From: a virus
Length of the DNA: 64,000 bases
Reading direction: 5' to 3' (one strand)
IMG/VR virus record: IMGVR_UViG_3300032240_001244
Location: 23,182-87,181 of that record
Shown here piece by piece: positions 7,359 through 38,671 of this stretch (position 1 is its first letter; each line of letters starts with the position of its first letter). The notes under the pieces are model-generated. The model was not told where the DNA came from, made no database searches, and worked only from the letters and a program-made list of their open reading frames with translations. The translations under genes were made by a program, and so were the position numbers.

Positions 7359-7384
7359 TCTCATAAGCATCAAAAAAGTGGCAA

Positions 7385-7413: not shown

Positions 7414-7466
7414 CCATTTTCAGTGGGTATTTATTTTTACCTTTACAAAAATTTAAAACAAAAAAC

Positions 7467-18184: not shown

Positions 18185-18193
18185 TCAATTGTT

Positions 18194-19459: not shown

Positions 19460-19480
19460 TATGACAAGTAAAGAATTCCG

Positions 19481-19597
19481 CCTAATAAAGGCATACCTCA
19501 ATCGGAAGAGGTTAAACAAAAAATAAGTGATAGCAAGAAAGGAAAGCCGTGAACAGAGGCAAGAAGATTAGCTCAAAAAAATAAAAAACAAAAATAG
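19481..19597 (+). pseudogene. NUMOD3 homing-endonuclease remnant
   Basis: In frame 2 the segment reads PNKGIPQSEEVKQKISDSKK then GKP, a stop (TGA 19550-19552) and TEARRLAQKNKKQK up to TAG 19595. This is the repeated basic pattern of NUMOD3, the DNA-binding module of GIY-YIG and HNH homing endonucleases. No catalytic domain remains. It lies in a 139-base gap between two genes, so it looks like the scar of a lost homing nuclease. Confidence 0.6.
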
Positions 19598-19598
19598 C

Positions 19599-19904: not shown

Positions 19905-19905
19905 T

Positions 19906-20349: not shown

Positions 20350-20354
20350 ATGTT

Positions 20355-20978
20355 ATGGTACCTATATCATATTGTATAACAACTCATGACGAAGGAGCAG
20401 CTTATATAAAACCCCTTCTAGATAGATTGTTGAAGCATCTTCAACCAGAAGATGAAATAGTAGTAGTAGATGATTTTTCCACGGAAGAGTCTACAGTAAA
20501 CGTATTGAACGAGTATAGAGATAGAGTTAACCTATACTTTAATTCTTTGAATAATGATTTTGCTGCACACAAAAACTTTGCTAAATCAAAATGTACAAAA
20601 GACTACATCTTTTTTATAGACGCAGATGAAAATGTACATGAGAATCTTTTGCTGACAATTAAAGAAATACTGCTTAATAATTCATCAGTAGAGATGTTTT
20701 TAGTGCCAAGAATCAATGTTGTACCTGGACTGACTCAAGAGCATATTAATAAGTGGGGGTGGCAGGTTAATGACAAAGGGTATATAAATTATCCAGATCC
20801 ACAGACTAGGATTGTTGTAAATAATCCTAATATACTATGGGAGAATAAAGTACATGAAAGGTTAATAGGGCATAGCACACATGCTATTTTACCTTTTGAA
20901 ACAGAAGACTATTGCTTATTACATATCAAAGATATTAAAAGGCAAGAGGCCCAAAACAACTTCTACAATACATTATAA
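20355..20978 (+). CDS. Glycosyltransferase family 2
   Basis: GT-A fold signature: VPISYCITTHDEGA at the start, EIVVVDDFSTEES (donor nucleotide-binding acidic cluster) and FFIDADENVHE as the DxD metal motif. At 207 residues it is a single-domain enzyme. Its TAATG junction overlaps the next gene by one base. Would transfer an activated sugar with inversion. Confidence 0.9.
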   Translation: MVPISYCITTHDEGAAYIKPLLDRLLKHLQPEDEIVVVDDFSTEESTVNVLNEYRDRVNLYFNSLNNDFAAHKNFAKSKCTKDYIFFIDADENVHENLLLTIKEILLNNSSVEMFLVPRINVVPGLTQEHINKWGWQVNDKGYINYPDPQTRIVVNNPNILWENKVHERLIGHSTHAILPFETEDYCLLHIKDIKRQEAQNNFYNTL

Positions 20979-21892
20979 TGAACATACTATTTCACTCCAA
21001 TCAGTTAGGAGTAAGAGGGACTGAAGTGGCTCTATATGACTATGCTCACTATAATGAAACTATTTTAGGAAACGTATCTTATGTAGCAGCTCCTGCTAAT
21101 TCAGACATGACCGCTTTAGGAAAGTTTAAGACTAGATTTGGAGATAGGATTATACTATATAATTCTTTTGAGGAACTATACTCTTTACCTATAGAAGCAG
21201 CCTATTTTATAAAAGCTGGGTTTAATGATGGCCTTTTAATTCCAGGAGTAAGAAACATAGTACATGCAGTATTTAATGCATCAGATAAACATGGGGAAGT
21301 TTATGTAGCAGTTAGTGAGTGGTTAGGTAAAATACATAATGTAGATCATCTTCCTCATATAGTATCTCTTCCAGATATAGCAGCGGACTTTAGGGAGTTT
21401 ATTCGAGCTTCTAACAATGACATAGTATTTGGAAGGTATGGTGGGTTTGATCAATTTGATGTACCTTATTTAGGAGACGCTATAAAAGCTGCTGCTGATA
21501 AGGGAATAAAGTTCTTATTCATGAATACTAAACAACTGAACTTCCAACACCCTAATGTAATGTATTCTGAAGCTAATACAGATATTGCTACTAAAACAGC
21601 ATTTATTAATACTTGTGATGCTATGATCCACGGTAGAAATGAAGGAGAGTCTTTTGGTTTATCTATAGCAGAGTTCCTGCATCAGAATAAACCTGTGCTA
21701 ACTAATATTCAATGTAGGGATAGGAATCATATTCATGTATTAGGGGATAAAGGCTTTTATTATAGCAACGGTAATGAGTTGTATGCTATGTTGACTTCTT
21801 TTGAAAAGAAAGAATACAATGTTAAATCTTTAGTAGATAAATTTAGACCAGAGATAGTAATGGAAAATTTTAAAGGTTTAATATATGAGTAA
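20978..21892 (+). CDS. Glycosyltransferase, GT-B type
   Basis: MNILFHSNQLGVRGTEVALYDY at the N-terminus is a GT4-type acceptor loop. The donor-site region HGRNEGESFGLSIAEFLHQN lies near 215-234. At 304 residues it is shorter than most GT4 enzymes but both halves seem present. Overlaps both neighbours by a few bases, so it is translationally coupled in the operon. Confidence 0.82.
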   Translation: MNILFHSNQLGVRGTEVALYDYAHYNETILGNVSYVAAPANSDMTALGKFKTRFGDRIILYNSFEELYSLPIEAAYFIKAGFNDGLLIPGVRNIVHAVFNASDKHGEVYVAVSEWLGKIHNVDHLPHIVSLPDIAADFREFIRASNNDIVFGRYGGFDQFDVPYLGDAIKAAADKGIKFLFMNTKQLNFQHPNVMYSEANTDIATKTAFINTCDAMIHGRNEGESFGLSIAEFLHQNKPVLTNIQCRDRNHIHVLGDKGFYYSNGNELYAMLTSFEKKEYNVKSLVDKFRPEIVMENFKGLIYE

Positions 21893-22802
21893 TTTTAAGA
21901 TAGCTTTTATATTCGCACATCGATCCACAGACGTTTGGAATACACCATTAAGTGTAGTCAAAGAGTTTGAATCAAGGGGATGGGAAACTAGAATATATTC
22001 TTTGTTTGATATCTACGATAATTATGTAGATACAAATATACAAAAGCTTATAGATGATAGTAAGTCAAAAGAATTTAATCCTGATATTGTAATGTATATG
22101 GACTGGGGTAGATTTGATTCTCCTTTGTTAGATATGAAAAATATACCAGGAGCTTTTTGGGTAATGGAGTCTGGAGACGATCCACAAAACTTTGAAAGAA
22201 ACTCTAGCAAGGCCTCCAAGTTTAATCTCGTATTAACCCCGGCATATGATTCTTATTTAGAGTATAAAAAAAGATATATAAACGCAGAGTGGTGGACTCA
22301 CTTTGCAGATAGCAATATACATAAACCATATTCAGGGTTTACTCCTTTTGATGAGTTGCCAAAGGTAAGATCAACTAGAGGGCCTGGAGGATCTAATCTT
22401 ATGGACTACTTAAGTCAGATAATGCCTGATAAGTTTATAAATAGGAATGGGCTATCTGGTATGGAATACGGTGACTTTCTTAACAGTGGAGTTATAGTAT
22501 TTCAACAGAGTAGATGGAGAGAGATAACTAGAAGATTGTTTGAAGGAATGGCTTGTGGAAAGTTAATTATAACAGATAGGCTTCCTATTCAAAGTAATAT
22601 AGATGAATTGTTTATAGAAAATGAAGATATAATTTATTACGATAGTTTAGGAGATTGTATTTCCAAAATAAACTACTACCTTAGCGAAGAAGCAAAATCA
22701 GAAAGAGAAAGAATTGCTTTGAATGGTTACAATAAAGTTATCAAAGATCACACACAAGTAGAAAGAGTAAATACTATTATAAAAAAGTTTAAAGAGTATT
22801 GA
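21885..22802 (+). CDS. CgeB-like glycosyltransferase
   Basis: KIAFIFAHRSTDVWNTPLSV opens a GT-B fold; PDIVMYMDWG and GAFWVMESGDDPQNF follow. The C-terminal part has FQQSRWREITRRLFEGMACG and the LIITDRL strand, as seen in CgeB/YkvP proteins of spore-coat and phage glycan clusters. 305 residues; overlaps the previous gene by 8 bases and the next by 4. Confidence 0.8.
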   Translation: MSNFKIAFIFAHRSTDVWNTPLSVVKEFESRGWETRIYSLFDIYDNYVDTNIQKLIDDSKSKEFNPDIVMYMDWGRFDSPLLDMKNIPGAFWVMESGDDPQNFERNSSKASKFNLVLTPAYDSYLEYKKRYINAEWWTHFADSNIHKPYSGFTPFDELPKVRSTRGPGGSNLMDYLSQIMPDKFINRNGLSGMEYGDFLNSGVIVFQQSRWREITRRLFEGMACGKLIITDRLPIQSNIDELFIENEDIIYYDSLGDCISKINYYLSEEAKSERERIALNGYNKVIKDHTQVERVNTIIKKFKEY

Positions 22803-23464
22803 TAATGTCTAGAAAATTTTCTATTATAATACCTACAATGTTCAAATGTCCGGACATTACAAATGAACTTTTGGCTAATTTGTATGAAGATCCTGCTGTA
22901 TCTGAAGTAATACTAATAAATAATACAGAAGAGCATAATAACGTTACTAAAATAAATGTTAACGGAAAACTTCAAATACATTCAAAAAATAAAAATTTAT
23001 ACGTAAATCCTTCTTGGAATTTAGGAGTGTCTGTTGCTAAAGAATCTTATCTGGGCATCCTTAATGATGATATTATTATTGCAGAGGGGTTATTTTCTGG
23101 GCTATCTAAGGTAGCTATTGAAAATTTAGGCGTAATAGGGGCGTCACATGGATCAATTATGGGATTAGATAAACCGGAAAGATTTTTGGCAACAGAGTTC
23201 CATATTGTAGGTATGCCAGAAAGAACGTGGGGATTTGGTGTTTTTATGGTTATTTATAAAAATCACTACTCGCAAATACCCGAAGACATGAAAATATGGT
23301 GCGGAGATGATTACATATACCACCAGAATAGAATAGCAGGTAGACAAAATTGCGTGCTAATGTGTCCAATAAAAACAAAAATGAGTATGACTTCTAATAA
23401 TTCCGTATTTGAAGAGATAAAAAATAATGATATAGAAGTGTACAATTCAAAATATAAAGTATGA
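22799..23464 (+). CDS. Glycosyltransferase family 2-like
   Basis: FSIIIPTMFKCPDITNELL and EVILINNTEEHN match the start of GT2 domains; the segment LNDDIII supplies the acidic metal motif (N-D-D instead of DxD). The later WCGDDYIYHQNR could hold the catalytic base. 221 residues. Overlaps the next gene by four bases. Confidence 0.75.
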   Translation: MIMSRKFSIIIPTMFKCPDITNELLANLYEDPAVSEVILINNTEEHNNVTKINVNGKLQIHSKNKNLYVNPSWNLGVSVAKESYLGILNDDIIIAEGLFSGLSKVAIENLGVIGASHGSIMGLDKPERFLATEFHIVGMPERTWGFGVFMVIYKNHYSQIPEDMKIWCGDDYIYHQNRIAGRQNCVLMCPIKTKMSMTSNNSVFEEIKNNDIEVYNSKYKV

Positions 23465-24102
23465 ATATAACAGAAAAGTATGGGTTTAAGATGTTTGTGA
23501 ACCAATTTGGAGCCGTTATACCAGAAAACTTCTACGATGAAAGTGAAATAATATTGATAGAAGCTTTTGAAAAATGTATTTTAGATTTAAAAAATAAAAA
23601 TAAAAATCTTTATACTATGATAGAATTGGGAAGCAATCAAGCTTACTATTCTATGTTATTTAAAGCCATTCTAAAAGGACAAGACACTCTTAATTTAATG
23701 ATAGAACCTACAGATGAATATATGGCAAGAGGTAAACATCATTTTAGTATAAATAACTATGATGGTATTTTCATAAATAAGTGCATAGGAAAAAGATGGA
23801 TAGCACATAGTTACGACTTTGAAAAAAAAGAAACATCCGTAGATAAATTAATAGAAGATTACAAAATAGAAAAACTAGACGTACTACACTCTGATATAGA
23901 CGGTGCTGAGTTTACAATGCTAGAAGGGGCTACAGAATCTTTAAAAAATAAAAAAATAGAGTATGCCTTTATACTCACTCATTATTTAGGAATGCATGAA
24001 GAGTGTTTAAAATTTATAACACAATTTGATTACGACATACTACTCGATCATAGAGAAGAGACCGTAGGAGGTGATAGACTTATAATAATTAAAAGTAAAT
24101 AA
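23461..24102 (+). CDS. FkbM-family methyltransferase
   Basis: A class I SAM methyltransferase. MIELGSNQAYYSMLF is the SAM-binding strand-loop (E-x-GSN instead of E-x-GxG). LMIEPTDEYMARGKHHF is the ribose-binding acidic strand. VLHSDIDGAEFTMLEGA is the FkbM hallmark (D-I-D/E-G). Likely O-methylates a sugar hydroxyl on the phage-encoded glycan, judged by its position among transferases. Confidence 0.85.
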   Translation: MNITEKYGFKMFVNQFGAVIPENFYDESEIILIEAFEKCILDLKNKNKNLYTMIELGSNQAYYSMLFKAILKGQDTLNLMIEPTDEYMARGKHHFSINNYDGIFINKCIGKRWIAHSYDFEKKETSVDKLIEDYKIEKLDVLHSDIDGAEFTMLEGATESLKNKKIEYAFILTHYLGMHEECLKFITQFDYDILLDHREETVGGDRLIIIKSK

Positions 24103-24103
24103 T

Positions 24104-24733
24104 ATGCAAAGGTACGATATTATAAACAGATTTATAAAAGAAAGAGGGTATAAAGATTATTTAGAGATAGGAGTTTATACCGGACAATGTATGAGAGAGA
24201 TAGTAGCAGACAATAAGACTGGGGTAGATCCTGGATCTGAAGGTCACGTAGCTACCGAAGTCACTCATGTAATGACATCAGACGCTTTCTTTGATAGTAT
24301 TAAAGAATCTAATAAAGTATATGATATTATATTCATAGACGGGTTACATCATTCTTATCAGGTAGATGTGGACATAGAGAACGCTTTAAAATATCTTAAA
24401 GATGGAGGGGTTATAGTAATGCACGATTGCAATCCTGAACAAGAAGTTTACACACTTATTCCTAGGGTAAGTGGTATATGGCATGGGGATGTTTATAAAT
24501 CAGTACTAAGGTTTAGGTCTAAGAACTTACACAGTTTTTTCACAGTAGATACAGACTGTGGATGTGGAGTTATATTTAAGGATTACAAAGGAGACTCACA
24601 AAATAATATAGAAGATTATAAAAAAGCACTATCTTCGTGGAATTATTTCTTTGATAACAAACAAAGACTTTTAAATTTAATCACCGTAGATGAATTTTTA
24701 AATACAAGTTATAATGAGGTGGGACATAATTAA
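24104..24733 (+). CDS. Class I SAM methyltransferase (Methyltransf_24 type), copy 1
   Basis: YLEIGVYTGQCM is the SAM-binding motif; DIIFIDGLHHSYQVDVDIENAL and GGVIVMHDCNP follow as in small sugar and cephalosporin-hydroxylase-like methyltransferases. Its end, VDEFLNTSYNEV, is nearly repeated in the next gene, so the two are tandem duplicates. It overlaps that gene by 20 bases. A methyl donor for sugars is likely, but substrate is unknown. Confidence 0.85.
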   Translation: MQRYDIINRFIKERGYKDYLEIGVYTGQCMREIVADNKTGVDPGSEGHVATEVTHVMTSDAFFDSIKESNKVYDIIFIDGLHHSYQVDVDIENALKYLKDGGVIVMHDCNPEQEVYTLIPRVSGIWHGDVYKSVLRFRSKNLHSFFTVDTDCGCGVIFKDYKGDSQNNIEDYKKALSSWNYFFDNKQRLLNLITVDEFLNTSYNEVGHN

Positions 24734-25310
24734 TTACTTAGTAGATCAAAATAAATACAGTAGATATCTAGAGATAGGAGTTCAAGAGTATTATTCTAAT
24801 TGTGATAAAATAAAAGCAGAGTATAAAGTAGCAGTTGATCCAGCTCCCAAAAGCAAGTGCGACTTTATAGGAACTTCAGATGCTTATTTTAAATCTATAG
24901 ATAAAGATGTTTTGTTTGACATAGTCTTTATAGATGGACTACATCAAAGTGATCAAGTGTTAATAGATATAGAAAATTCTTTAAATCATTTATCTGAAGG
25001 CGGCACAATTGTAGTACATGATTGTTTACCAGAAGCCGAGTATCAGCAAGTTAGAGAAGATAATCACAGAGAGTGGACTGGAGATGTATGGAAAGCTATT
25101 GCATTCCTAAAAGGAACTAGAAGTGATTTAGATATAAAAGTTGTAGATCATGATTGGGGATGTGGGATTGTACAAAAAGGTAGACAAGAGCTAGGCAAAT
25201 ATAAGACAGTAGAAGAGCTTAACTGGACAATATTTGAGTCTAATAGGAACTCATTGATGGGAGTTATATCAGTAGATGAATTTTTAAATACATACAAAAA
25301 TGAAGCTTAA
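24714..25310 (+). CDS. Class I SAM methyltransferase (Methyltransf_24 type), copy 2
   Basis: A paralogue of the upstream gene. RYLEIGVQEYYSNCDKI replaces the glycine-rich loop, so SAM binding may be altered. DIVFIDGLHQSDQVLIDIENSL and GGTIVVHDCLPEAEY are well kept, and the C-terminus VDEFLNTYKNEA matches copy 1. The changed loop (E-I-G-V-Q-E instead of E-I-G-V-Y-T-G) suggests divergence after duplication. Overlaps the next transferase gene by 11 bases. Confidence 0.82.
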   Translation: MRWDIINYLVDQNKYSRYLEIGVQEYYSNCDKIKAEYKVAVDPAPKSKCDFIGTSDAYFKSIDKDVLFDIVFIDGLHQSDQVLIDIENSLNHLSEGGTIVVHDCLPEAEYQQVREDNHREWTGDVWKAIAFLKGTRSDLDIKVVDHDWGCGIVQKGRQELGKYKTVEELNWTIFESNRNSLMGVISVDEFLNTYKNEA

Positions 25311-26019
25311 TCTGTCAGTAGGCATACTAACTTGGAATTCTTATAACACCTTACAAAATACTTTAGAAAGTTATAAACAATCTGGATTACTGGATATGGT
25401 AAATGACGTTTGTATTTTTGCACAAGAGGGTAAAGATATAGATTATAAAATAGCTGCCAAGTATAACACAGACGTAATACTAAGCCCAGATAATGTGGGT
25501 ATAGGTAAAGGTTTAAGTACATTAGCCCACGCAGCAGAGACTGATACTATACTACTACTAGAAAATGATTGGGTAATATTAACTGATTTTTTTTCTATAG
25601 TATATGAGGAACTTAAGAAAGGAATGGATATGTTAGAGTCAAATAAGGCAGACGTGATTAAATATAGAAGTAGAAGGGTTCCTGGAGATCCTTTATATAC
25701 TTTGCAATTTTCAAATCGTGAAATGGATAGCCCTAAACATTTATTTGAATGCGTACATTGGAGAGAAAACCCAGACGTAGATTTCCCAGAATATATAAGT
25801 AAGGACAAGGACACAGGATTGTATTATGCTAAATCAAAATATGCTAATCAAACTAACAATCCATGTTTATATAAAAAAGAATTTTACACTAAAAACATAT
25901 CTCCCTTTTCTGGAGAAGGTAACGAGTTAGAAGGAAAGATAGATGGTTGGTGGCAAGAACAAGACTTTACAGTTGCACATGGGGAAGGATTATTTACACA
26001 TTATAGATTAGACCGATGA
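25300..26019 (+). CDS. Glycosyltransferase family 2-like
   Basis: LSVGILTWNSYNTLQNTLES is a GT2 start. NVGIGKGLSTLAHAAETD and LLLENDWVIL hold the donor and metal-binding region, with E-N-D in place of DxD. The C-terminal WWQEQDFTVAHGEGLFTH includes an acidic-aromatic segment that may be the catalytic base region. 239 residues, four-base overlap with the nuclease gene. Confidence 0.8.
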   Translation: MKLNLSVGILTWNSYNTLQNTLESYKQSGLLDMVNDVCIFAQEGKDIDYKIAAKYNTDVILSPDNVGIGKGLSTLAHAAETDTILLLENDWVILTDFFSIVYEELKKGMDMLESNKADVIKYRSRRVPGDPLYTLQFSNREMDSPKHLFECVHWRENPDVDFPEYISKDKDTGLYYAKSKYANQTNNPCLYKKEFYTKNISPFSGEGNELEGKIDGWWQEQDFTVAHGEGLFTHYRLDR

Positions 26020-26648
26020 AAAAATTATTATTTATTACATTAGGATTATTAGTAAGTTTTTATGTTTCTGCACAACATACGGTGGCACTAAAGCACAAAC
26101 AGTATCAAACGGTATTTGACACAGTACTTAAATATCCAATAGAAGTAAGTTGGGTATTGACAAAGGAATCTGTAGATTGTAAAAACAAATATACCAGAAC
26201 AAATAAATTTGTTGCAGACCCTCTATTACACAAACAAACAGATTTAGAAGATTCTTATGCTGGGTCTGGCTATGACAGAGGTCATAACTTTCCAGCTGCT
26301 GATGCTGCTTGTGATTCTACATCTATGATAGAATGTTTTTATTTTTCTAATATGACTCCACAAGATCCTACTGTTAATAGAGGTGATTGGAAACAACTAG
26401 AAGAATTAGAAAGAAATCTTTCTATAAAATACGACTCGGTAAAAGTATGGTGCGGATCTTGGGGATCAAAAAAGAAAATAGGACAAGTAACAGTCCCTAC
26501 AGATTGTTGGAAAGTTATTTATATAGTAAAGACAAAAGAGTGGACGGCATATCATTTTTATAATAAGAAATCAAATTCAGCAGGGACAAAGTCACATGAA
26601 GTACCTTTGTCTTTTATAGAAAAACAAACACACATAAAGTTTAAATAA
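26016..26648 (+). CDS. Exported DNA/RNA non-specific endonuclease (NUC1 family)
   Basis: A cleavable signal peptide (MKKLLF...FYVSA, cut near residue 19) leads into a beta-beta-alpha-metal nuclease. YDRGHNFPAAD (D87-R-G-H90) is the active site with the general-base His, and FSNMTPQDPTVNRGDWKQLE supplies the metal Asn and substrate residues. It would degrade DNA and RNA outside the cytoplasm. It lies inside the glycan operon, four bases overlapping the upstream transferase, an unexpected place for a secreted nuclease. Confidence 0.92.
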   Translation: MKKLLFITLGLLVSFYVSAQHTVALKHKQYQTVFDTVLKYPIEVSWVLTKESVDCKNKYTRTNKFVADPLLHKQTDLEDSYAGSGYDRGHNFPAADAACDSTSMIECFYFSNMTPQDPTVNRGDWKQLEELERNLSIKYDSVKVWCGSWGSKKKIGQVTVPTDCWKVIYIVKTKEWTAYHFYNKKSNSAGTKSHEVPLSFIEKQTHIKFK

Positions 26649-26655
26649 AAAAAAT

Positions 26656-27498
26656 ATGGTTTTTGATTGCTTTACATTCTTTAATGAATTAGATCTACTG
26701 GAATTCAGATTAAAACTGTTATCAGATGTAGTTGATAAGTTTGTCATTTGTGAGTCTAATTACACTCATAGCGGTAAGTTAAAGCCTTATTATTTTGAAG
26801 AAAACAAAGATAGGTATAGTAAATGGCTAGATAAAATAGTATACCTTCCAATAGAACAGTCTATAGAAGGTTTGAATTTTGATACAGTAAATAGCTACAC
26901 TCCAACAAATGGATCTTGGATATTAGAAAATGAACAGAGGATGGCTCTTCTATACGCAGGAGAGATCATGAGAGATGACGATCTTGTACTTGTAGGAGAC
27001 CTAGACGAGATACCAAATCCGGGAGCTCTGGTAGCTATATTGCAAAATGATATGCTACATAAAAACAACGTAGCAATATCTTTATCTCTTTTGTTTCATT
27101 ACTATTATTTTAACTGTCAAATGGAAGGGTTTGATAGAATATGGAATGGTACAGTGGTTTGTTTAGCCGATTACTTTAGGTCTAATAACCCTCAGTATCT
27201 TAGAGATAATAGAAATAACTTTACCAGATTGCCTAATGCTGGGTGGCATTTTTCATATCTTGGAGGAATAGATAAAATCAAAAAAAAGATAGAATCTTTT
27301 GCACATACAGAATTTAATAGACCGGATATAACATCTGATGAGAATATTAAAGATGCTATAGAAAATGGTAAGGACATATTTAAAAGACAGGGTGTATCAT
27401 ATAAAGTAGTGCCTGTAGCATACTACCCAGAACCTATAAGATCATTAATGCTTGAGTATCCACAATTTATTAAAAATGAAGTTACGTTCCATAGTTGA
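26656..27498 (+). CDS. Glycosyltransferase family 17-like
   Basis: MVFDCFTFFNELDLLEFRL is the hallmark start of GT17 (N-acetylglucosaminyltransferase III-like) proteins, followed by FVICESNYTHSGKLKP and DDLVLVGDLDEIPNP, which carries the acidic DxDE motif. NAGWHFSYLGG is also typical. In bacteria and phages such enzymes act on surface or virion glycans. Starts after a short A-rich leader; overlaps the next gene by 23 bases. Confidence 0.88.
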   Translation: MVFDCFTFFNELDLLEFRLKLLSDVVDKFVICESNYTHSGKLKPYYFEENKDRYSKWLDKIVYLPIEQSIEGLNFDTVNSYTPTNGSWILENEQRMALLYAGEIMRDDDLVLVGDLDEIPNPGALVAILQNDMLHKNNVAISLSLLFHYYYFNCQMEGFDRIWNGTVVCLADYFRSNNPQYLRDNRNNFTRLPNAGWHFSYLGGIDKIKKKIESFAHTEFNRPDITSDENIKDAIENGKDIFKRQGVSYKVVPVAYYPEPIRSLMLEYPQFIKNEVTFHS

Positions 27499-28306
27499 TA
27501 AGTCTTGTTACGCAACCATAGCCACCATTACTGAAGATAGCTTTGATAAGTTAAATTTTTTCTTACAGTATAACGGAGAGTTTATAAAACAGTTCCCACA
27601 CGTCATTATCTCCACAAATAGCTTAGAAGATACTCCTATACGTAAAATTAATCAATACCATAATACATGGCGTAGATTAGCCCCTAATTGCGTTATACTG
27701 CATTCTGATAAAAATAGAGGTCATATGTTTGGAACCATAGACTTGGAAGAGAGTATATTAAAGCACATTAAAAGTCATTTGCCTGAAATTAAATATTTAT
27801 GGAAGGCAATGGATGATATTATTAGTACAACAGATCTTCTAGATTTAGAAGTAGAGGAGGCAGAGTTTTACTATCTTCCAGGGTTTAGTTACGAATCTAT
27901 ACAGAAAGCAGGAGGAAAAGAAAAACTATATGAGATATACGAAAATTTTGAGAGCAATTTTTGGACTCCTCAAACTCCTTTTTTTATTCTCGATATCACT
28001 AATATTGATAATCTTTACGGGACTGATGTCGATACTAAGATTAGTATTTATGAGGAAGTTAAGGCACGGAATCCGTCTGTAAAGCCATGGGAAGTGCCAT
28101 TCAATCTTAAGTTTGATTGTGAAACTCATCTAGGAAGAACTACTAAGGATCTAAAAAAATACTGTCTACTTAAGGATCAATTCAAAGATCTCCTCGATAT
28201 GGTAGAGATAAATAAGATAGGGGATCCATCCCACAAGAATATATATTTTGAAAAATTGGGAGTCTGCCATTATCATTTCTATAAAGATTTGATATATAAC
28301 GTATAA
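27476..28306 (+). CDS. Putative glycosyltransferase, last gene of the glycan operon
   Basis: I place the start at ATG 27476; the in-frame TTG at 27452 would give a longer overlap. 276 residues with a fold compatible with GT-A: an early strand ATIATITEDSF, PHVIISTNS, then YLWKAMDDIISTTDLL, where the acidic pair could be the metal site. No family is certain. The next gene has its own promoter, so this ends the operon. Confidence 0.65.
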   Translation: MKLRSIVDKSCYATIATITEDSFDKLNFFLQYNGEFIKQFPHVIISTNSLEDTPIRKINQYHNTWRRLAPNCVILHSDKNRGHMFGTIDLEESILKHIKSHLPEIKYLWKAMDDIISTTDLLDLEVEEAEFYYLPGFSYESIQKAGGKEKLYEIYENFESNFWTPQTPFFILDITNIDNLYGTDVDTKISIYEEVKARNPSVKPWEVPFNLKFDCETHLGRTTKDLKKYCLLKDQFKDLLDMVEINKIGDPSHKNIYFEKLGVCHYHFYKDLIYNV

Positions 28307-29889: not shown

Positions 29890-30591
29890 ATGCAAATCAA
29901 ATCTTTCAAAAAAGAGAAATCTAATAGAGGGCAAGACCTTAATATAGAAAGGCAAGCTATTGAAAGAGCTATGAGAGATACTATGTCAAACAAAGCTGCG
30001 GCAAGGTTCTTAGGAGTATCTTTTAAAACATATAAGAAATACGCCCAGATGTACCGTAATGAAGATGGTATAACCTTATATGAGCTACATAAGAACCAAG
30101 CTGCTAAAGGTATTCCTAAGTTTGGCAAGAGGAGGCATGACAAGGCTTCCATCATGGATATCATGGAAGGGAGAGTCCCTAAAACATTTGTATCAATTAA
30201 AATATTAAAACATCAAATAATACAGCATGGAATCTTAAAAGAAGAATGTTGTAGGTGTGGATTCAAAGAGCAGCGTGTATTAGATTACAAGACCCCTCTT
30301 ATAATGAATTTTAGGGATGGAGATAAAAAAAATTGGGCTTTAGAAAACATAGAATTTCTATGCTATAATTGTTTTTTTCTTTGTGTAGGAGAAGTTTTTA
30401 CAAATAAACAACTGTCTGTAATGGAAGATTTTACAGATTTAAGATCTGTTAAAATAGATCTAGACTTGCCAGTAAAACATGAGGAAGCCATAAAAGAATC
30501 AATTAACCTGGAAAATAAACATATTTATAGTAGTGAAGAAAGGCCAGAGGATTACGGAGATGATTTAATATCAACATTCAGAAGACGATGA
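29890..30591 (+). CDS. HTH protein with a degenerate HNH-type zinc domain
   Basis: Residues about 20-50 (IERAMRDTMSNKAAARFLGV then SFKTYKKYA) form a Fis/resolvase-like helix-turn-helix. A zinc domain follows: CCRCGF, then LIMNFRDGDKKNWALENIEFLCYNCF. Spacing equals HNH nucleases of the type CxxC...LDHxDGxxxNNxxxNLxxLCPNCH, but both catalytic histidines are replaced (MNF for LDH, NCF for NCH). It probably binds DNA through the fold without cutting. 233 residues; operon partner of the two hypothetical genes before it. Confidence 0.75.
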   Translation: MQIKSFKKEKSNRGQDLNIERQAIERAMRDTMSNKAAARFLGVSFKTYKKYAQMYRNEDGITLYELHKNQAAKGIPKFGKRRHDKASIMDIMEGRVPKTFVSIKILKHQIIQHGILKEECCRCGFKEQRVLDYKTPLIMNFRDGDKKNWALENIEFLCYNCFFLCVGEVFTNKQLSVMEDFTDLRSVKIDLDLPVKHEEAIKESINLENKHIYSSEERPEDYGDDLISTFRRR

Positions 30592-31320: not shown

Positions 31321-31515
31321 ATGAAAAAAGCATTTATTATTTTTTTGTTATCTTTGTTTGTAGTATCCTGTGGAGGATCTAATGAAAGTAAACCTGTAGA
31401 AGCTACATATGCACCAGTAGGAGTTGATAGTTCAAATATACTACCTCCACTTACGGATAGTGCTAAGATTGAATTGAATGGAGAAAAACCAAAGCCACAG
31501 TTGAACGAGAATTAA
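31321..31515 (+). CDS. Small lipoprotein, 64 aa
   Basis: MKKAFIIFLLSLFVVSC is a lipoprotein signal with lipobox VVSC (lipidated C17), followed by GGS, as in Bacteroidota lipoproteins, then a Pro-rich 47-residue mature part. Possible roles are an o-spanin-like lysis factor or superinfection exclusion; no spanin partner is evident. It ends six bases before the tmRNA 5' end. Confidence 0.78.
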   Translation: MKKAFIIFLLSLFVVSCGGSNESKPVEATYAPVGVDSSNILPPLTDSAKIELNGEKPKPQLNEN

Positions 31516-31606
31516 AAATAAGGGCCTAACCGGTATCGATTCGTAATCGGAGGGTAGTACCACACGCAGAGATAAGTACTAGATCTCTTTAAACTCTGTA
31601 CAAAAT

Positions 31607-31684
31607 ATAAACGACGAAATGTCTACTATGACCTTCGATGACCTTATGGCCTTCGTTGGTGCCGATGAAGCAACATTTGCTTAG
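31607..31684 (+). other. tmRNA proteolysis-tag reading frame
   Basis: ATA then AAC GAC GAA matches the resume region of other tmRNAs (GCA AAC GAC GAA in E. coli). Reading on gives NDEMSTMTFDDLMAFVGADE then ATFA and TAG 31682-31684. That is 25 codons if ATA is the resume codon. The tag is more than twice the usual 10-15 and ends TFA instead of the usual LAA/ALAA, although still small and hydrophobic. Confidence 0.7.
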
Positions 31685-31911
31685 TCCGCCGAGGTGTCTA
31701 CAACCTCGCTTCAAACAAAGTGGAACACAGAGTTTCCCCGATCGACTCTTTAAATAAGGACTGGGGTGGTGGAAAGCTGTCTCCGGACAACCCCTTACTG
31801 ATCAGCTTGCAGATCAAAACTACGGTGCAGATGACGGGGGATCTCCCTCTTGATTGTCAGTACTAAGCGTGTGATATGCTGGTATTATTGTTCATTACGA
31901 AGACGTGGGTT

Positions 31912-32189
31912 TGTGGAATCGGACCCATCTAGTAGGAATACTAGATTAAAAACTGGATGAATTGCTGGAACTCCTATGACATAGGACAATCAGCAGCCAA
32001 GCCTAAAGTACACTTTAGGAAGGTTCAACGACTAGCGGAGAGATAAAGTTCTCTTAATAACCGCACTAGCGTCCAGCACCCAGATCGGGTGATGATATAG
32101 TCTGATCCTCTTGGTAACAAGAGTTGTAGTTCTTTACGAGGCTGTCTATGAAATCTAAAGTTTCTGGATCTAACAAAAGAATACCAGTG
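31912..32189 (+). ncRNA. Group I intron in the tmRNA T-loop
   Basis: Exon TGGGTT (31906-31911) pairs with the guide GACCCA and its preceding G (31922-31927), giving the required U-G pair at the 5' splice site (U31911, G31922). G31921 and two bases before it can pair with the 3' exon CGA (P10). The core is visible: P2 hairpin CTAGTA/TACTAG (31929-31944), P6-like CCTAAAGT/ACTTTAGG (about 32002-32019), P7 GACTA (32030-32034) with TAGTC (32098-32102), and P9 CTCTTG/CAAGAG (about 32108-32123). The intron ends in G32189. It is 278 nt and carries no homing-endonuclease frame. Confidence 0.87.
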
Positions 32190-32241
32190 CGAATCCCACT
32201 AGGTCCACTTAAAGGTTTAGGTTAGGATTATGGTTAAAACG

Positions 32242-32271
32242 AAGGGGGGTTTCTACCCCCTTTCTCTTTTT
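32242..32271 (+). terminator. Rho-independent terminator after tmRNA
   Basis: AAGGGGG (32242-32248) pairs with CCCCCTT (32256-32262) around a short loop, followed by a T-rich run TTCTCTTTTT. Strong G/C stem; ends the lipoprotein-tmRNA transcript. Confidence 0.82.
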
Positions 32272-33226: not shown

Positions 33227-33472
33227 ATGAAGAAGTTTTTTCAAGATCTATTTAATGATAATAACAGTATTAATGAGAAAGCTGTTATAGGATTCATGTC
33301 ATTTGTAATGATGTGTGTATTTGCAATTACTGATATTGTTTTAGGTACTAAAAATAAAACACTAGTTATAAATGAATATATATTTGATGCGTTTAAATGG
33401 TTAACAGCTATTTGCTTTGGAATAGCCAGTGTGGATAAGTTTATAAACAAGAGATCTGAAAAGGGAGACTAG
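33227..33472 (+). CDS. Holin-like membrane protein, 81 aa
   Basis: Two hydrophobic helices (about 19-40 and 55-70) between a charged N-terminus (KKFFQDLFNDNNS) and a basic/acidic C-terminal tail. Size and topology fit small phage holins or anti-holins, but no family signature is certain. Leader is A/T-rich without Shine-Dalgarno. Confidence 0.68.
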   Translation: MKKFFQDLFNDNNSINEKAVIGFMSFVMMCVFAITDIVLGTKNKTLVINEYIFDAFKWLTAICFGIASVDKFINKRSEKGD

Positions 33473-33722: not shown

Positions 33723-34013
33723 ATGGCAGAGTTTTCAAAACAATGGTGTGAAATTTGGGACCCTTCTATGCCTCATGACTTTGATATTGAGGATATTATA
33801 AAAGATATGAATAGAGATAGGTATTATCCTATAGTATGCGAAGGCTTTGGTTTTAATTGTATACATAAAGATGCGCATGGGAATATATGGCTATCTTATG
33901 GGTATGATAAAGATGGCAACAGTACTAGTTGGAGAAGATATAAGACTGTCTTGCTAGAAGAAAAGAAAAAAACACCAAATAATGAAAATTGCAGTATTCA
34001 GCGACACTCATAA
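33723..34013 (+). CDS. Hypothetical protein, 96 aa
   Basis: Acidic N-terminus, then a Tyr- and Trp-rich beta segment (GNIWLSYGYDKDGN). The last 32 bases overlap the metallophosphoesterase start, so the two are translated in coupling. No motif recognised. Confidence 0.68.
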   Translation: MAEFSKQWCEIWDPSMPHDFDIEDIIKDMNRDRYYPIVCEGFGFNCIHKDAHGNIWLSYGYDKDGNSTSWRRYKTVLLEEKKKTPNNENCSIQRHS

Positions 34014-34719
34014 TAAACACAAACAAGTAACTCTTCCAGAGTGTGATATTGCTATATTTGCCGGAGATGCCACTTCGGTTGGACAAAAGCACGAAGTAGA
34101 GAGCTTCCTTAATTGGTACGGTAAGCAATATCAGTGTAAGCACAAAGTCTTTATTGCTGGTAATCATGATAAGTCTTTTGATAAAAAATTCTATAGAAAT
34201 TTTGAAGACCATGATTTATTTAAAGAGAACGAGCATCTAGGAAAGCCTGGGTGGTTAGTAGATATGTTAGAGAGAGCCAGAGTTGTATTAAATGTACAGT
34301 ATCTTGAAAATCAATCTAGTATTATAGAAGGTATAAAAATATGGGGTAGTCCTATTACTCCAAGTTTCTATAAACAATACTGGGCTTTCAATGCTGATAG
34401 AAATGAAGAGGTCCGATCTTATTGGGATAAAATTCCCCAAGATACCAACATAGTTGTTACTCACGGACCTGTTCATGGTAAACTAGATTATATACCAGAG
34501 AGTGGTGAATATGTAGGATGCGTGGATTTAAAATCCAAGATAGAAGAAATAAAACCTATGATGTTTATTTGTGGTCATATACATTCTGGAAGAGGGGTAT
34601 ATAACACAGATAAAACATTGTATGTCAATTCCTCTATAATGGATAATGCGTATAATAAACAAGGAGAGCCAATGGTATTTAAAATAAATGTGGATAAGAT
34701 GTATGTAGATTTTTATTAA
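33982..34719 (+). CDS. Metallophosphoesterase (calcineurin-like)
   Basis: All five metal-binding blocks are present: FSDTHNK (D8, H10), IFAGDAT, IAGNHDKSF, VVTHGPVHG and GHIHSGRG. 245 residues, single domain. Such enzymes hydrolyse phosphodiesters or 2',3'-cyclic phosphates; targets could be nucleotides, RNA ends or signalling molecules. It precedes a convergent holin-like gene; no other hint to substrate. Confidence 0.88.
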   Translation: MKIAVFSDTHNKHKQVTLPECDIAIFAGDATSVGQKHEVESFLNWYGKQYQCKHKVFIAGNHDKSFDKKFYRNFEDHDLFKENEHLGKPGWLVDMLERARVVLNVQYLENQSSIIEGIKIWGSPITPSFYKQYWAFNADRNEEVRSYWDKIPQDTNIVVTHGPVHGKLDYIPESGEYVGCVDLKSKIEEIKPMMFICGHIHSGRGVYNTDKTLYVNSSIMDNAYNKQGEPMVFKINVDKMYVDFY

Positions 34720-34798: not shown

Positions 34799-34960
34799 TT
34801 AAGCTTTCTTAGATACTACAGACCATATTGAACCAACGATAGTCATAATGCCACCAATTACTTCAATAGAAACTCCTTCGCTAACAATACCTTTTGTTAC
34901 AAGGATACCACCAGCAAAAGTAAGAATGTGTCTTACAAGGCCTAAAATTTGATCTTTCAT
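34799..34960 (-). CDS. Pam3-gp28-like small holin, 53 aa
   Basis: Translating the - strand from ATG 34960 gives a protein beginning MKDQILGLVRHILTFAGGIL and ending SIWSVVSKKA, with two hydrophobic helices around a VSEGVSIEVIGG turn. This is the pattern of the Pam3-gp28 holin family (VRxxLTxxGGxLVxKGxVxxxxxxxxxGxxxxxxxxxWS). It would form membrane lesions that release the endolysin. It is the only - strand gene in the first 46 kb and has its own terminator, so timing of its expression is separate. Confidence 0.8.
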   Translation of the reverse strand: MKDQILGLVRHILTFAGGILVTKGIVSEGVSIEVIGGIMTIVGSIWSVVSKKA

Positions 34961-35030: not shown

Positions 35031-35345
35031 TAGCCCGAAGGCCACGGGATCGAAAATTCAGGAATGCCTCTCTAATTGCCTTGAGATAGTATCGACTAGG
35101 ATTACGAAGCACACTGCTCCTCTAGATCGTTAGCTAGCGGTGTAAAGCAATCCCACTGGAAAATAGGATTGCAAATAAGGTTGATTGGGATGAATGCAAG
35201 TGCATCATCGGTTAGAAATGCCAATCGTAAAAGCAGGTGTCCACGCACCCATCTCCTGCTTTCCTAAAATTATTGAGAGAAGAAGACGAAAGTGATTTTA
35301 TGGTCAGTGTACATATTCCATAGATAGCTCCTGACTACTAAACTA
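35031..35345 (+). ncRNA. Structured RNA of unknown family, 5' flank of signalling cassette
   Basis: No ORF covers this stretch, yet it is full of long helices. They are CCCG/CGGG (35034-35048), GCAATCC/GGATTGC (35147-35172), GATTGG/CCAATC (35183-35226) enclosing a 9-bp bulged hairpin (35189-35209), AGCAGG/CCTGCT (35232-35260) and a final TGGTCAG/CTGACTA 7-bp stem (35301-35337). I tested RNase P, 6S, tmRNA and group I patterns and found no match. The strand is inferred from the downstream gene direction. Local G/C is higher than in neighbouring spacers, as expected for an RNA gene in an A/T-rich genome. Confidence 0.68.
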
Positions 35346-35369
35346 TTTAATAATTAAAACAAAACAAAA

Positions 35370-35906
35370 ATGAAAAAATTTATTATTGATCCACTGCACT
35401 CAGAAATTGGGTTTAAAATTAAACACTTAATGATTTCGACTGTGACAGGTAATTTTGGAAAATTTAACGCAACTATGGAATCGGAATCGAGCGATTTTAC
35501 AGATGCAAAAATTAATTTTACAGCAGACGTTAATGCTCTGTCTACTAATATTTCCGATAGAGATCATCACTTAAAGTCACCTGATTTTTTTGATACAGAT
35601 AATTTTCCGAATATTACATTTGAGTCAACTAAAGTTGAAAAATTAGGAGAAGAATACGAAGTTTCTGGCAATCTAACTATTAAAAGCGTAACCCTACCAG
35701 TAAAGCTTAAAGGTACATACAATGGTAATGACGTTGATGCTTACGGACAAACAAAGTACGGTTTTGAGTTAGAGGGTAAAATTAACCGTAAGGATTGGGG
35801 ATTGACTTTTAATTTAGAAGGCGGCAAGGGCAGTTTACTTATTGGCGACGAAGTTAGACTTATAGTTAGTATTCAAATGACTGAACTCCAAAAAATAGAA
35901 GAGTAG
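35370..35906 (+). CDS. YceI-like lipid-binding protein without signal peptide
   Basis: 178 residues. FIIDPLHSEIGFKIKHL and TGNFGKFNATM at the start, SPDFFDTDNFPNITFES, and the late GKINRKDWGLTFN match the YceI lipocalin-like barrel that binds isoprenoids. Usual YceI proteins are exported; this one starts directly at the domain, so it should be cytoplasmic. It heads the operon with histidine kinase and receiver genes (2-7 base gaps), so it may act as a ligand-sensing or carrier partner. Confidence 0.85.
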   Translation: MKKFIIDPLHSEIGFKIKHLMISTVTGNFGKFNATMESESSDFTDAKINFTADVNALSTNISDRDHHLKSPDFFDTDNFPNITFESTKVEKLGEEYEVSGNLTIKSVTLPVKLKGTYNGNDVDAYGQTKYGFELEGKINRKDWGLTFNLEGGKGSLLIGDEVRLIVSIQMTELQKIEE

Positions 35907-35908
35907 TA

Positions 35909-36793
35909 ATGGATAATAAAAATAAAATACTACTGGTAGTATCGGCATTAATCATGATTACATTCTTTGTAATAAAATCATTGTCTGTATTTGAATTAAT
36001 AGAATACACTAAACGCGTACAAGTATTCGAGTACCTTTGTTTTATTTTATTCTGCCCGCCGTCATTTATTTTTGTTAAGAATTTTTTAAGAAAAAAAGAC
36101 GGAGAACATCAACGGACGGTTGACCAATTAAGTTATAAAAATACATACTTAGAACACGCTGCTAAGATACTCAGGCACGATATGCACTCAGGAATCAATG
36201 TTTATATGCCAAAGGGTATCTCAGCGATAGAAAGAAAGTTACCCGGGGAAATAATAGAACGCTATAAATTAGAAAATTCTTTAAAATTATTAAAAGAGGG
36301 TTTATTGCATACTCAAAAAGTTTATAGAGGAGTTTATGAGTTTACTAATTTGGTTAAAGAAGGTAGTGGTATTGAATTAAAACCACATAAACTTTCTAAT
36401 ATTTTAATTTCGTATTTGGATTCAACATCATACAAAGAACAAGTTATATTCGATAGTTTTAGTTTACCGACTATTAATGTAAATGAACCTTTGTTTTGTA
36501 CCGCTATAGATAACTTGATTAGAAATGGTTTAAAGTATAATGATAGTGAAACTAAAGTTGTTGCTGTATATATGTTAGATGATAATACTTTAGTTGTTCA
36601 AGATAATGGCCGAGGAATGACAAATGAAGAATTTACCTATATGTCAAAGACAAATACTCGTAAAGAAAATCAAAAAGAAACTGGTTCCGGTTTAGGATTG
36701 GGTATTTGTGTTGCAATTTTGAATGAACATGGATTTAGTGCTAGTTGTGATAAAATTGAAGAAGGAACTCAAATTAAAATTAAAATTAAATAA
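35909..36793 (+). CDS. Membrane histidine kinase
   Basis: Two membrane helices (about 3-24 and 39-60) with almost no periplasmic loop suggest sensing in the membrane or from inside. The phospho-acceptor region LRHDMHSGIN has H90 followed by D. The GHKL ATP domain shows the N-box AIDNLIRNGLKYND (N202, N206), G1 VVQDNGRGMT and G2 GSGLGLGI. All catalytic elements are intact. 294 residues. The gene starts two bases after the YceI-like stop, and the receiver gene follows by six bases, forming a complete two-component pair in a phage. Confidence 0.9.
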   Translation: MDNKNKILLVVSALIMITFFVIKSLSVFELIEYTKRVQVFEYLCFILFCPPSFIFVKNFLRKKDGEHQRTVDQLSYKNTYLEHAAKILRHDMHSGINVYMPKGISAIERKLPGEIIERYKLENSLKLLKEGLLHTQKVYRGVYEFTNLVKEGSGIELKPHKLSNILISYLDSTSYKEQVIFDSFSLPTINVNEPLFCTAIDNLIRNGLKYNDSETKVVAVYMLDDNTLVVQDNGRGMTNEEFTYMSKTNTRKENQKETGSGLGLGICVAILNEHGFSASCDKIEEGTQIKIKIK

Positions 36794-36799
36794 AAAAAA

Positions 36800-37231
36800 A
36801 TGATAAAATCAATTTTATTAGTAGACGATGAAAGTTTATTTCATCTTGTTTTTGAAGATGCGTGTAGCCTATTAGACATTGCATTACATCTCCATAGTAT
36901 AGACAGCTCGGATAAAGCTGAAAAATTATTTAAAGACTGGAATAAAAATCCAAATACTCGACCAGAGTGTGTTTTTGTTGATTTAAACATAGTCGGCAGC
37001 TCTTATGATGGTATTGAGCTTATTCGTAAGATTAATTTTGAATACGGTAATGGCGTTGTTATAGGAATAATTTCATCAAGTTCGGATAAAATGGAACAGG
37101 CTAAAGCAATACAAGCAGGAGCACAATTTTGGATTGTTAAATCAGATGAAATTGAACCTAGGCTCGAGGAATTTAAAAAAGACTATAGTGCATATCTAAA
37201 TAAAACCGCTTCTTTTAAAGTTTATCAGTAA
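36800..37231 (+). CDS. Stand-alone response-regulator receiver
   Basis: 143 residues, a single REC domain: LVDDES (D9, D10), phospho-acceptor VFVDLN (D61), ISSSSD switch residues and the conserved Lys in IVKSDE (near 114). No output domain follows, so it would act by binding a partner, as CheY or Spo0F do. The adjacent kinase is its likely phospho-donor. Confidence 0.92.
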   Translation: MIKSILLVDDESLFHLVFEDACSLLDIALHLHSIDSSDKAEKLFKDWNKNPNTRPECVFVDLNIVGSSYDGIELIRKINFEYGNGVVIGIISSSSDKMEQAKAIQAGAQFWIVKSDEIEPRLEEFKKDYSAYLNKTASFKVYQ

Positions 37232-37244
37232 TAACTTCTAGCTT

Positions 37245-37805
37245 ATGATCAAATTTAATGCCGAATTAAAAAAACAAATAATCGACATTTACAATAAAAA
37301 TGGTATTTTTTTAGAGGGTAATATTCTTAAACTCATAGATGCTGAAAACGATAATCAATTTAAAGATTATCTTGAGAGGGCGATTAATAACGACAAAGAA
37401 ACCAGAAAAAAAAGATTAGATGTTACAAAACAAATTCAATCTCAAAATAAAGAATTGGTTGCAGCGCAGGAAAATAATTCTAAATTAATGGCAGAGCTCA
37501 CTGAAGCTCTACAAAAGGCTGAACGTGCAAAAAAAGACGCAGAAGATGATTTAGACTTATTACAAAAGAAGACCCAAACTGAGTTAATTGGAACAATCGT
37601 TAAAGTTGCTCTTGCTATTGTTATAGGCATAGGCGTTATGACCACTCTGTTATTTGCTACTGCATTTTTTTTAAATAAAGACACTACCTTATTAGGTAAT
37701 GCCTGGTCAAACATGTTTGGAATACTATTAACAAATTCTTTTAGTATTATTGGTACTATTATGGGAGTTAAGTATGCGACTGAAAATGGAAAAACTAAGA
37801 CTTAA
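37245..37805 (+). CDS. Coiled-coil membrane protein of the signalling cassette
   Basis: 186 residues. An acidic and basic N-terminal region leads into a long helix (about 45-110) rich in Gln, Glu, Lys and Ala that should form a coiled coil. Two hydrophobic helices follow (about 115-143 and 155-180). It starts 13 bases after the receiver, so it is probably the output or effector of the two-component pair. No family recognised. Confidence 0.75.
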   Translation: MIKFNAELKKQIIDIYNKNGIFLEGNILKLIDAENDNQFKDYLERAINNDKETRKKRLDVTKQIQSQNKELVAAQENNSKLMAELTEALQKAERAKKDAEDDLDLLQKKTQTELIGTIVKVALAIVIGIGVMTTLLFATAFFLNKDTTLLGNAWSNMFGILLTNSFSIIGTIMGVKYATENGKTKT

Positions 37806-37937
37806 TAAATTTTGACACGCACGGCAACCGAAAGCATACTAGACACTGCTTAGGCAATGCGAGCAATCACGAAGAATACCTCACAGTGCGTAGGTAAGCT
37901 CTAAGTTCTTCTGACCGTGGGGAAAGGCCCATCATAT

Positions 37938-38028
37938 AGTCAGGTGGCGGAATGGTATTCGTTACAATGTGGGAAGACCCCTGCAACGTTCTAAAACCAC
38001 ACTACAGGTTCGAATCCTGTCCTGGCTA
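37938..38028 (+). tRNA. tRNA-like element 1, 91 nt, no clear anticodon arm
   Basis: AGTCAGG pairs with CCTGGCT (38021-38027, one G-U), A38028 as discriminator. A perfect T-arm ACAGG-TTCGAAT-CCTGT (38004-38020) abuts the acceptor as in real tRNAs. The TGGCGGAATGGTA stretch resembles tRNA-Leu-type D arms. I scanned the middle for a 5-bp stem with a 7-base loop and found none; TGTGG/CCACA pair but enclose 24 bases. It may be a class II tRNA with an unusual fold, a tRNA carrying an insertion, or a tRNA mimic. CCA not encoded. Confidence 0.5.
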
Positions 38029-38149
38029 CGAGGGGAAAGTAACTTAAAGGGAGCCCCAAATGGAGAATCTGTAAAATCTTTCTAGGTTATATACAGTGCG
38101 ACCGCCGGTAAAGATCTCAGCAAGTGACACACGGGGAGAGACCCGACCA

Positions 38150-38228
38150 AGTCAGGTGGGCGTAATGCGGGATGGTTCCCAAGTCCAATAGAATGGTTGC
38201 TTATCCGGTTCGAGTCCGGCCCTGACTA
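38150..38228 (+). tRNA. tRNA-like element 2, 79 nt, weak anticodon arm
   Basis: AGTCAGG pairs perfectly with CCTGACT (38221-38227); A38228 is the discriminator. T-arm TCCGG-TTCGAGT-CCGGC (38204-38220) has one end mismatch. A possible anticodon arm GGATG-GTTCCCA-AGTCC (4 bp plus G-A) would read UCC (Gly codon GGA), but the D arm is very short and the variable region long. The first ten bases equal those of element 1, so the two are relatives. CCA not encoded. Confidence 0.5.
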
Positions 38229-38264
38229 CGCTGTTGTTCTTTGACATATAAGGAGAATCAAATT

Positions 38265-38540
38265 ATGGATACATTATCATTCGCTTTAGGGATTGCGACT
38301 GTGGTGGTTATTGCTATTGCAATAGTTGCTGTTTATGCTTTCTTTAAGGTAAGAGAAGTAAAACAAGACAATAGTCTTTTTATTATGGATTTAGATAAAA
38401 GATTTGAAGATTTATATAACCTTCTAGGTAGAAATGAAGAAGCAATAAATCGGAAAATATATGAAGTAGAGCGAGATGTATACTCTGCATTAGACTCAAG
38501 ATTAGATAAACTAGAAAGTAAATTAACAATTAAAAAATAA
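38265..38540 (+). CDS. Small membrane protein with coiled coil, 91 aa
   Basis: Start set at ATG 38265 because AAGGAG lies nine bases upstream; an in-frame ATG at 38241 precedes that site. One membrane helix (about 5-27) is followed by a charged coiled-coil tail rich in Glu, Asp, Lys and Leu. Resembles the N-anchored small proteins elsewhere in the genome (9552). No family recognised. Confidence 0.72.
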   Translation: MDTLSFALGIATVVVIAIAIVAVYAFFKVREVKQDNSLFIMDLDKRFEDLYNLLGRNEEAINRKIYEVERDVYSALDSRLDKLESKLTIKK

Positions 38541-38567: not shown

Positions 38568-38641
38568 GGACTTATAGCTCAGTCGGTTAGAGCATCTGAC
38601 TCATAATCAGAGGGTCCCTGGTTCAAGCCCAGGTGAGTCCA
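38568..38641 (+). tRNA. tRNA with CAU anticodon (Met or modified Ile)
   Basis: Clean cloverleaf: acceptor GGACTTA/TGAGTCC, D arm AGCTCAGTCGGTTAGAGC, anticodon stem TCTGA-CTCATAA-TCAGA with CAU, and T-arm CCTGG-TTCAAGC-CCAGG. Discriminator A; CCA is not encoded. CAU may decode AUG, or AUA if the cytidine is modified to lysidine; the genome uses many AUA codons. I cannot decide from sequence alone. Confidence 0.93.
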
Positions 38642-38671
38642 CTAAAATTTATTAAACATAAAATAAAAACT

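Follow-up and report, generated by a model that had tools for sequence, protein, structure and literature searches.

Why would a tailed phage carry a complete two-component system, and on what would it act? We examined these questions at positions 35,031 to 38,264 of a 64,000-nucleotide stretch of viral DNA (the window), which covers bases 23182-87181 of the linear IMG/VR virus record IMGVR_UViG_3300032240_001244 (87,181 bp). Four open reading frames (ORFs) at this locus encode a YceI-like protein, a histidine kinase (HK), a stand-alone receiver (response regulator, RR) and a coiled-coil membrane protein (CC). They lie on one strand as one operon with gaps of 2, 6 and 13 bp, as a first-pass annotation made from the letters alone had described (Table 1). 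On balance we favor the view that HK, RR and CC are a phosphorelay specific to viruses, a two-component system by which the phage times lysis of its host through CC at the inner membrane.

A triad of kinase, receiver and membrane protein in phages

The kinase matched the HATPase_c domain but no HisKA model in Pfam. Its phospho-acceptor, H90, lies within the motif RHDMHSGIN, and two N-terminal transmembrane segments (TMs) are separated by a loop estimated at about 11 residues. H90, N202/N206, D232-x-G234-x-G236 and G261-x-G263 were invariant across 58 diverse HK relatives, and the catalytic residues D9, D10, D61, S92 and K114 of RR were invariant among 29 relatives, as were 58 of its 143 columns. 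The intact H, N, G1 and G2 boxes and the complete receiver noted in the first-pass annotation are thus confirmed. RR consists of the receiver domain alone, with no LytTR DNA-binding output. The locus encodes an HK and its cognate receiver, as expected of a two-component system, and His-to-Asp phosphotransfer between them is predicted.

We compared this arrangement with relatives found by pattern scans of IMG/VR. The scans detected at least 555 relatives of the receiver and at least 586 of the kinase, in contigs of up to 430 kb, and the non-redundant set comprised 110 loci with distinct RR sequences, designated here by L numbers. HK was located upstream of RR in 107 of the 110 loci; the other three, including L050, in which HK overlaps an extended RR start, are within 0.9 kb of the contig start. 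CC was located downstream of RR in 105 loci, and all five exceptions end at a contig edge. The HK-RR-CC triad was therefore intact in every locus whose contig extends far enough, with median gaps of 5 and -1 bp, and 28 loci contained two tandem HKs. Each of 50 long phage records had exactly one RR. The terminase family phrog_2 was matched in 19 of these 50, and six matches were verified as the terminase large subunit; many of the records are therefore clearly phages. The HK-RR-CC module is thus present in hundreds of large, uncultured tailed phages whose hosts are probably Bacteroidota, and it often lies within their lysis operon. The retention of a complete two-component system by selection in phages is well supported by these results. 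Of the four-gene order that had been put forward for comparison, the HK-RR-CC part is kept together, and YceI is present in only 12 of the 110 loci.

RR was far more conserved than a phage hallmark gene. Pairwise identities among six records were 65-83% for RR and 25-53% for terminase, with 40-64% for CC and 46-63% for the HK cores. This indicates strong constraint on RR, transfer between phage lineages, or both. The suggested comparison of codon usage revealed the cassette (GC content, 30.7%) as an outlier, at 0.115 against a maximum of 0.100 over all size-matched runs of window genes. Because of this codon usage and the conservation of RR relative to terminase, transfer of the module between phages is probable.

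The module was essentially virus-specific in our searches. tblastn with RR and CC gave no match in 50,697 INPHARED phage records, and no cultured triad-bearing phage was found there. The HK matches in INPHARED (MW462191 and others) were unrelated kinases, and MW462191 itself seems bacterial (ccm genes, HtrA). A search of plasmids with the RR consensus was also negative. Among 84,980 species of bacteria and archaea, a pattern scan detected only two loci, L162 and L163. L163 was rejected as a bacterial copy, as its contig has TerL- and PhoH-like genes by inspection and is a phage contig binned as a bacterium. The contig of L162 is bacterial, with CreD and a Por secretion tail. Other than L162, no CC homologue was found in 396 phylum-level and 242 order-level genomes, and no RR homologue was found in 297 genomes using the RR profile. 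A bacterial origin of the module was rejected, as no bacterial source was found in these searches. With a single bacterial copy, the module does not appear to belong to the cellular two-component systems of Bacteroidota.

The AlphaFold2 model of CC, based on 50 aligned sequences (pLDDT 88.8, pTM 0.44), comprises a small N-terminal domain (residues 1-36), one 106-residue helix (37-142) and TM2 (148-185). The long helix forms a cytoplasmic coiled coil that continues into TM1. Twenty-three residues were invariant among the 50 relatives, mostly in TM2 (W154, L161, T163, N164, F166, S167, I168, G170, T171, I172, G174 and K176) and in the RL/Q/L coil. The putative receiver-binding and coil part contains G25, Y42, D50, R54, R57, L58, Q65 and L71. 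CC had no convincing Pfam family and no fold match in the PDB (best E 2.9), and the sole good viral match was an uncharacterised protein of an uncultured phage. Thirteen of the 50 CC members matched phrog_1544 (best 5.8e-7), indicating distant relatives of unknown function in PHROG genomes; these relatives were not located in INPHARED.

The bacterial copy provides the best sequence evidence on the role of CC. In L162, a gene for a PAS-PAS-HK is followed by an RR 77% identical to that of the window and then by a 349-aa protein. The N-terminal ~105 residues of this protein match the CC profile (E 2e-23), and a HATPase kinase makes up its C-terminal half. What accompanies RR is thus the N-terminal part of CC, and the output behind it is a kinase in L162 and a TM hairpin in phages. 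Because this part stays beside RR while the output is swapped, the receiver probably signals into CC, and CC is probably its output. The N-terminal region looks like a transferable input domain for RR. The earlier proposal that the system acts through the membrane coiled-coil protein is, therefore, judged probable, in line with the intact triad in relatives of adequate length. L162 itself (5709-9090), on a bacterial chromosome, is apparently a domesticated three-step relay.

The sensory part of the module was diverse. Among the 58 HK representatives, 29 contained PAS and 16 contained GAF domains, and 25, including the HK of the window, had two TMs joined by a loop no longer than 25 residues. 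Variable sensors are thus predicted to feed a fixed RR-CC core. In the 12 loci with YceI, the gene was placed before HK or between HK and RR. The N-terminus of the window YceI (MKKFIIDPLHSEIGF) has no signal peptide by inspection, unlike typical bacterial members, which are exported to the periplasm; the protein is therefore probably cytoplasmic, as had been annotated. In solved structures, bacterial relatives of YceI bind isoprenoids. We speculate that the window YceI, lacking a signal peptide, would be active in the cytoplasm, with quinones or polyprenyl carriers as candidate ligands. Lipid sensing through YceI, proposed earlier as a central idea, lost ground as a core function, given its rarity and varying position. 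An apparent YceI-HK fusion in L085 was discarded, as half of the barrel seems to have been lost there through an in-frame deletion. Separately, many loci (L120, L125, L137, L139, L142 and others) have, directly before HK and coupled to its start (-1 bp), a TM protein of 62-80 aa that ends in FCPSKWxFEKLGFxK; it is possibly a sensor partner or a pinholin.

Linkage to lysis genes and rival explanations

The commonest neighbors of the triad were endolysins (amidase, GH19-like and M15), PF05105-type holins and small TM proteins. The order in L141 and L142 is a relative of the two-TM protein encoded at 33227 in the window, endolysin, holin, small TM protein, HK, RR and CC, with overlaps of -4 and -1 bp, and close variants of this operon were present in L120, L124 and L125. 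Two lysis enzymes were found in L092, L094, L115 and L121, and a holin or endolysin lies downstream of the triad in L010, L105 and L113. Altogether, an operon with both endolysin and holin was observed in L010, L092, L113, L115, L120, L121, L124, L125 and L140-L142. This position suggests that the phages sense the state of the cell to decide when to lyse it.

In the window, the 33227 gene is located 2 kb upstream of the cassette. Its family opens the lysis operon in L125 and L139-L142, and its homologue gp192 in the cultured Flavobacterium phage immuto directly precedes the GH19 endolysin and holin. A 53-aa holin gene (34799) adjoins the cassette in divergent orientation and is followed by a terminator-like hairpin (34776-34757). 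Its homologues adjoin CC in L009, L040, L053 and L057. A whole-record search for PF05105 holins detected one in 1 of 50 records and is insensitive; divergent members are recognisable as immuto gp190-like.

In 24 of 34 records a GH19 endolysin gene and RR were no more than 6 kb apart, with the endolysin gene on either side of RR and on either strand. By chance, 5.3 such records would be expected on average, and the most seen in 20,000 random placements was 15; the control gene, terminase, was within this distance in 0 of 13 records. Several points weigh against a role in lysis. The records are related, which leaves the null for GH19 placement not fully independent, and in the other 10 of the 34 more than 6 kb separates the GH19 gene from RR. 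One of five lysis families was present within the fetched flank in only 59 of 110 loci. The main gap is that no endolysin was recognised in the incomplete 87-kb contig, and the link of the window itself to lysis consists of two small holin-like genes together with the arrangement in relatives. CC fits no holin family well (1 of 50 members matches Phage_holin_9, E 0.005), and we call it a membrane coiled-coil output protein only, not a holin.

Three other functions were weighed against this evidence. Superinfection exclusion, in which HK would sense the arrival of another phage at the envelope, and CC would keep the competitor's DNA out, would suit the two-TM, short-loop HKs, which resemble envelope-stress kinases. 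In its small size and inner-membrane location CC resembles exclusion proteins already described, and genes of this kind can sit near late genes. However, half of the HKs have cytoplasmic PAS domains, which are not envelope sensors, and translational coupling to endolysin and holin genes and repeated re-linkage to endolysin would not be expected, making exclusion an unlikely function. The coupling also bears on the possibility that the module is mobile cargo, passed between phages in a late-region hotspot beside tRNA arrays and lysis genes and with a fitness role unrelated to lysis. The first-pass annotation had raised such cargo, and its mobility agrees with the codon usage, the GC content and the RR-to-terminase contrast, as well as with the tRNA arrays adjoining the module in the window, L002 and L005; the embedding in lysis operons of relatives had escaped that annotation. 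Start/stop overlaps with holin and small TM genes and the strict retention of three genes point instead to co-function, and we regard cargo unrelated to lysis as improbable to a similar degree as exclusion.

The extreme conservation of RR could also reflect a conserved host target, if the free receiver acted on a host protein or drained phosphate from host kinases, with CC a mere anchor. Such hijacking of a host pathway appears the least probable of the three, because the phage always brings its own HK and CC, and the bacterial copy L162 keeps the CC N-terminal partner of the receiver despite the swapped output.

We therefore return to lysis timing by the HK-RR-CC phosphorelay, for which we propose the following scheme. 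A membrane-bound HK, or a tandem pair, would sense membrane or physiological state by way of its two TMs, which lie close together, or of PAS or GAF domains. YceI would be an optional cytoplasmic accessory to this sensing, possibly one that binds isoprenoids. Phosphate would pass from H90 of HK to D61 of RR, and phosphorylated RR would bind the small cytoplasmic N-terminal domain of CC. The coiled coil may then relay this binding to a change in the TM hairpin in the inner membrane, which could gate holin action, as antiholin or trigger, or itself depolarise the membrane, so that endolysin would be released at the right time. The scheme draws support from the conserved triad, its intact catalytic residues, its virus specificity, the lysis-operon linkage in relatives and the exchange of the CC output for a kinase in one bacterium. 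Phosphotransfer, RR-CC binding, control of lysis, the direction of that control and the signal sensed are predictions from sequence.

Flanking sequence, phage and host

Table 1 Features of the locus and its neighborhood in the window.
Feature	Position	Strand	Evidence
81-aa two-TM protein, family linked to lysis cassettes	33227..33472	+	40% identical to immuto gp192
53-aa holin, Phage_holin_10 (Pam3 gp28 family)	34799..34960	-	PF23987 1e-16
5' non-coding flank, tRNA-array-like spacer ending CTCCTGACTAC	35031..35369	+	ORF-free; folding z 0.08
YceI-like lipocalin barrel, 178 aa, optional accessory	35370..35906	+	PF04264 4.5e-46, 157 bits
HK, 294 aa	35909..36793	+	HATPase_c PF02518 2.7e-12
Stand-alone receiver (RR), 143 aa, D61 phospho-acceptor	36800..37231	+	Response_reg PF00072 3.6e-9
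CC (coiled coil, two TMs), 186 aa, proposed receiver output	37245..37805	+	AlphaFold2 model, conservation
Degenerate tRNA: Leu-like D arm, T arm, odd anticodon region	37938..38028	+	Rfam tRNA 32.1 bits, E 5e-4; no ARAGORN call
Second tRNA-like element, full acceptor pairing AGTCAGG/CCTGACT and T arm	38150..38231	+	Sequence; folding z -1.2; no Rfam or ARAGORN call
92-aa one-TM coiled-coil protein, weak holin match	38262..38540	+	phrog_1296 (holin) E 0.0044 only
Intact tRNA-Met(CAT)	38568..38642	+	ARAGORN; Rfam 71.2 bits

Both flanks of the cassette were ORF-free and GC-rich (40% and 49% vs 34%), as the first-pass annotation had noted. Its interpretation of them as structured RNAs did not hold: folding was no better than that of shuffled sequence on the 3' side (z 1.14) as on the 5' side, and no Rfam family other than tRNA was detected in the flanks. 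The T-arm and acceptor sequence of the 3' flank recurs in tRNA arrays upstream of HK in L002 and L005. The flanks are best read as a decayed tRNA array, ordinary debris of phage tRNA arrays. The arrays in L002 (2446-3561) and L005 (310-3123) have long GC-rich spacers, an unusual organisation of phage tRNAs, and ARAGORN misses some of their tRNA-like elements and calls others oddly (e.g. tRNA-SeC).

Tailed-phage genes elsewhere in the record encode tail sheath, tail tube, UvsX, a DnaB-like helicase, DNA polymerase, ribonucleotide reductase and GroEL. Judged by its proteins, the source phage is a distant relative of immuto (Immutovirus), with identities of 54% for PolA, 55% for GroEL and 50-57% for two glycosyltransferases (38-57% over the shared PolA, GroES, GroEL and glycosyltransferases). 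The Bacteroidota-type promoter element TANNTTTG was over-represented (107 occurrences vs 80 expected), and a sigma-70 promoter scan gave no useful excess. Because of this element and the relatedness to immuto, the host is probably a Flavobacteriia-like bacterium.

Other genes of the window were also recorded. The phage encodes GroES and GroEL (12520-14716) in the same order beside PolA as in immuto, and a long stretch of glycosyltransferase- and methyltransferase-like genes (16745-28306) includes some common to immuto. An HNH-like ORF is located at 29890-30591, and a Group I intron (31901-32124, + strand; Rfam RF00028, 96 bits) lies in ORF-poor surroundings (31515 to 32270). A calcineurin-like phosphoesterase gene (33982-34719) was also close to the triad in nine non-redundant relatives.

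Comparison with known systems

When to lyse the host is a central decision for a lytic phage. The controls known so far are holin clocks, antiholins and, in T4, the sensing of superinfection. If our reading is correct, numerous uncultured phages would use a phosphorelay of their own to work out from sensed signals when to lyse the cell, and H90, D61, the N-terminal domain of CC and TM2 are clear targets in it. More tentatively, and with slightly less than even confidence, we suggest that the module represents a virus-exclusive class of phosphorelay, with CC as a dedicated post-translational membrane effector and interchangeable sensors on a fixed receiver-effector core, which would time lysis through phosphotransfer rather than through transcription. 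The literature searched, mostly open-access papers, contained no report of a two-component system within a phage lysis cassette, so that an earlier mention is possible.

The lysis cassette of immuto shares the family of the 33227 gene beside its GH19 endolysin and holin, but neither immuto nor any other INPHARED record showed an HK-RR-CC triad. Intramembrane-sensing kinases of the LiaS/BceS type likewise have two TMs and a very short loop, as in the window HK. The phage HK differs in its RHDMHSGIN motif without a HisKA match and in its partners, a stand-alone receiver and CC rather than a DNA-binding regulator, and many of its relatives add PAS or GAF.

The periplasmic antiholin of T4 binds directly, and no phosphorelay is involved. 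Lysis inhibition (PMC13389391), which in T4 involves the antiholins RI and RIII acting on holin T, is similar to the proposed scheme in that sensing of infection state alters holin triggering at the inner membrane; no sequence relation between the T4 lysis-inhibition proteins and the triad was found. Bacterial LytSR/LytST systems resemble the scheme in pairing a membrane HK with a response regulator to govern autolysis and the holin-like membrane proteins LrgAB/CidAB; one described case is LytST of S. mutans (PMC3507848). However, LytR-type regulators are transcription factors acting via LytTR, whereas the phage RR has no output domain, its likely partner is the adjacent CC, and it is encoded by a virus. 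The cREC domains of jumbo phages are likewise receiver folds encoded by large phages. In a survey of 224 jumbo phages, receivers were mentioned only as kinase-free cREC domains, reported as never paired with histidine kinases and linked to NAD/ADPr enzymes (PMC7824862). Unlike cREC, the receiver described here always stands beside an HK.

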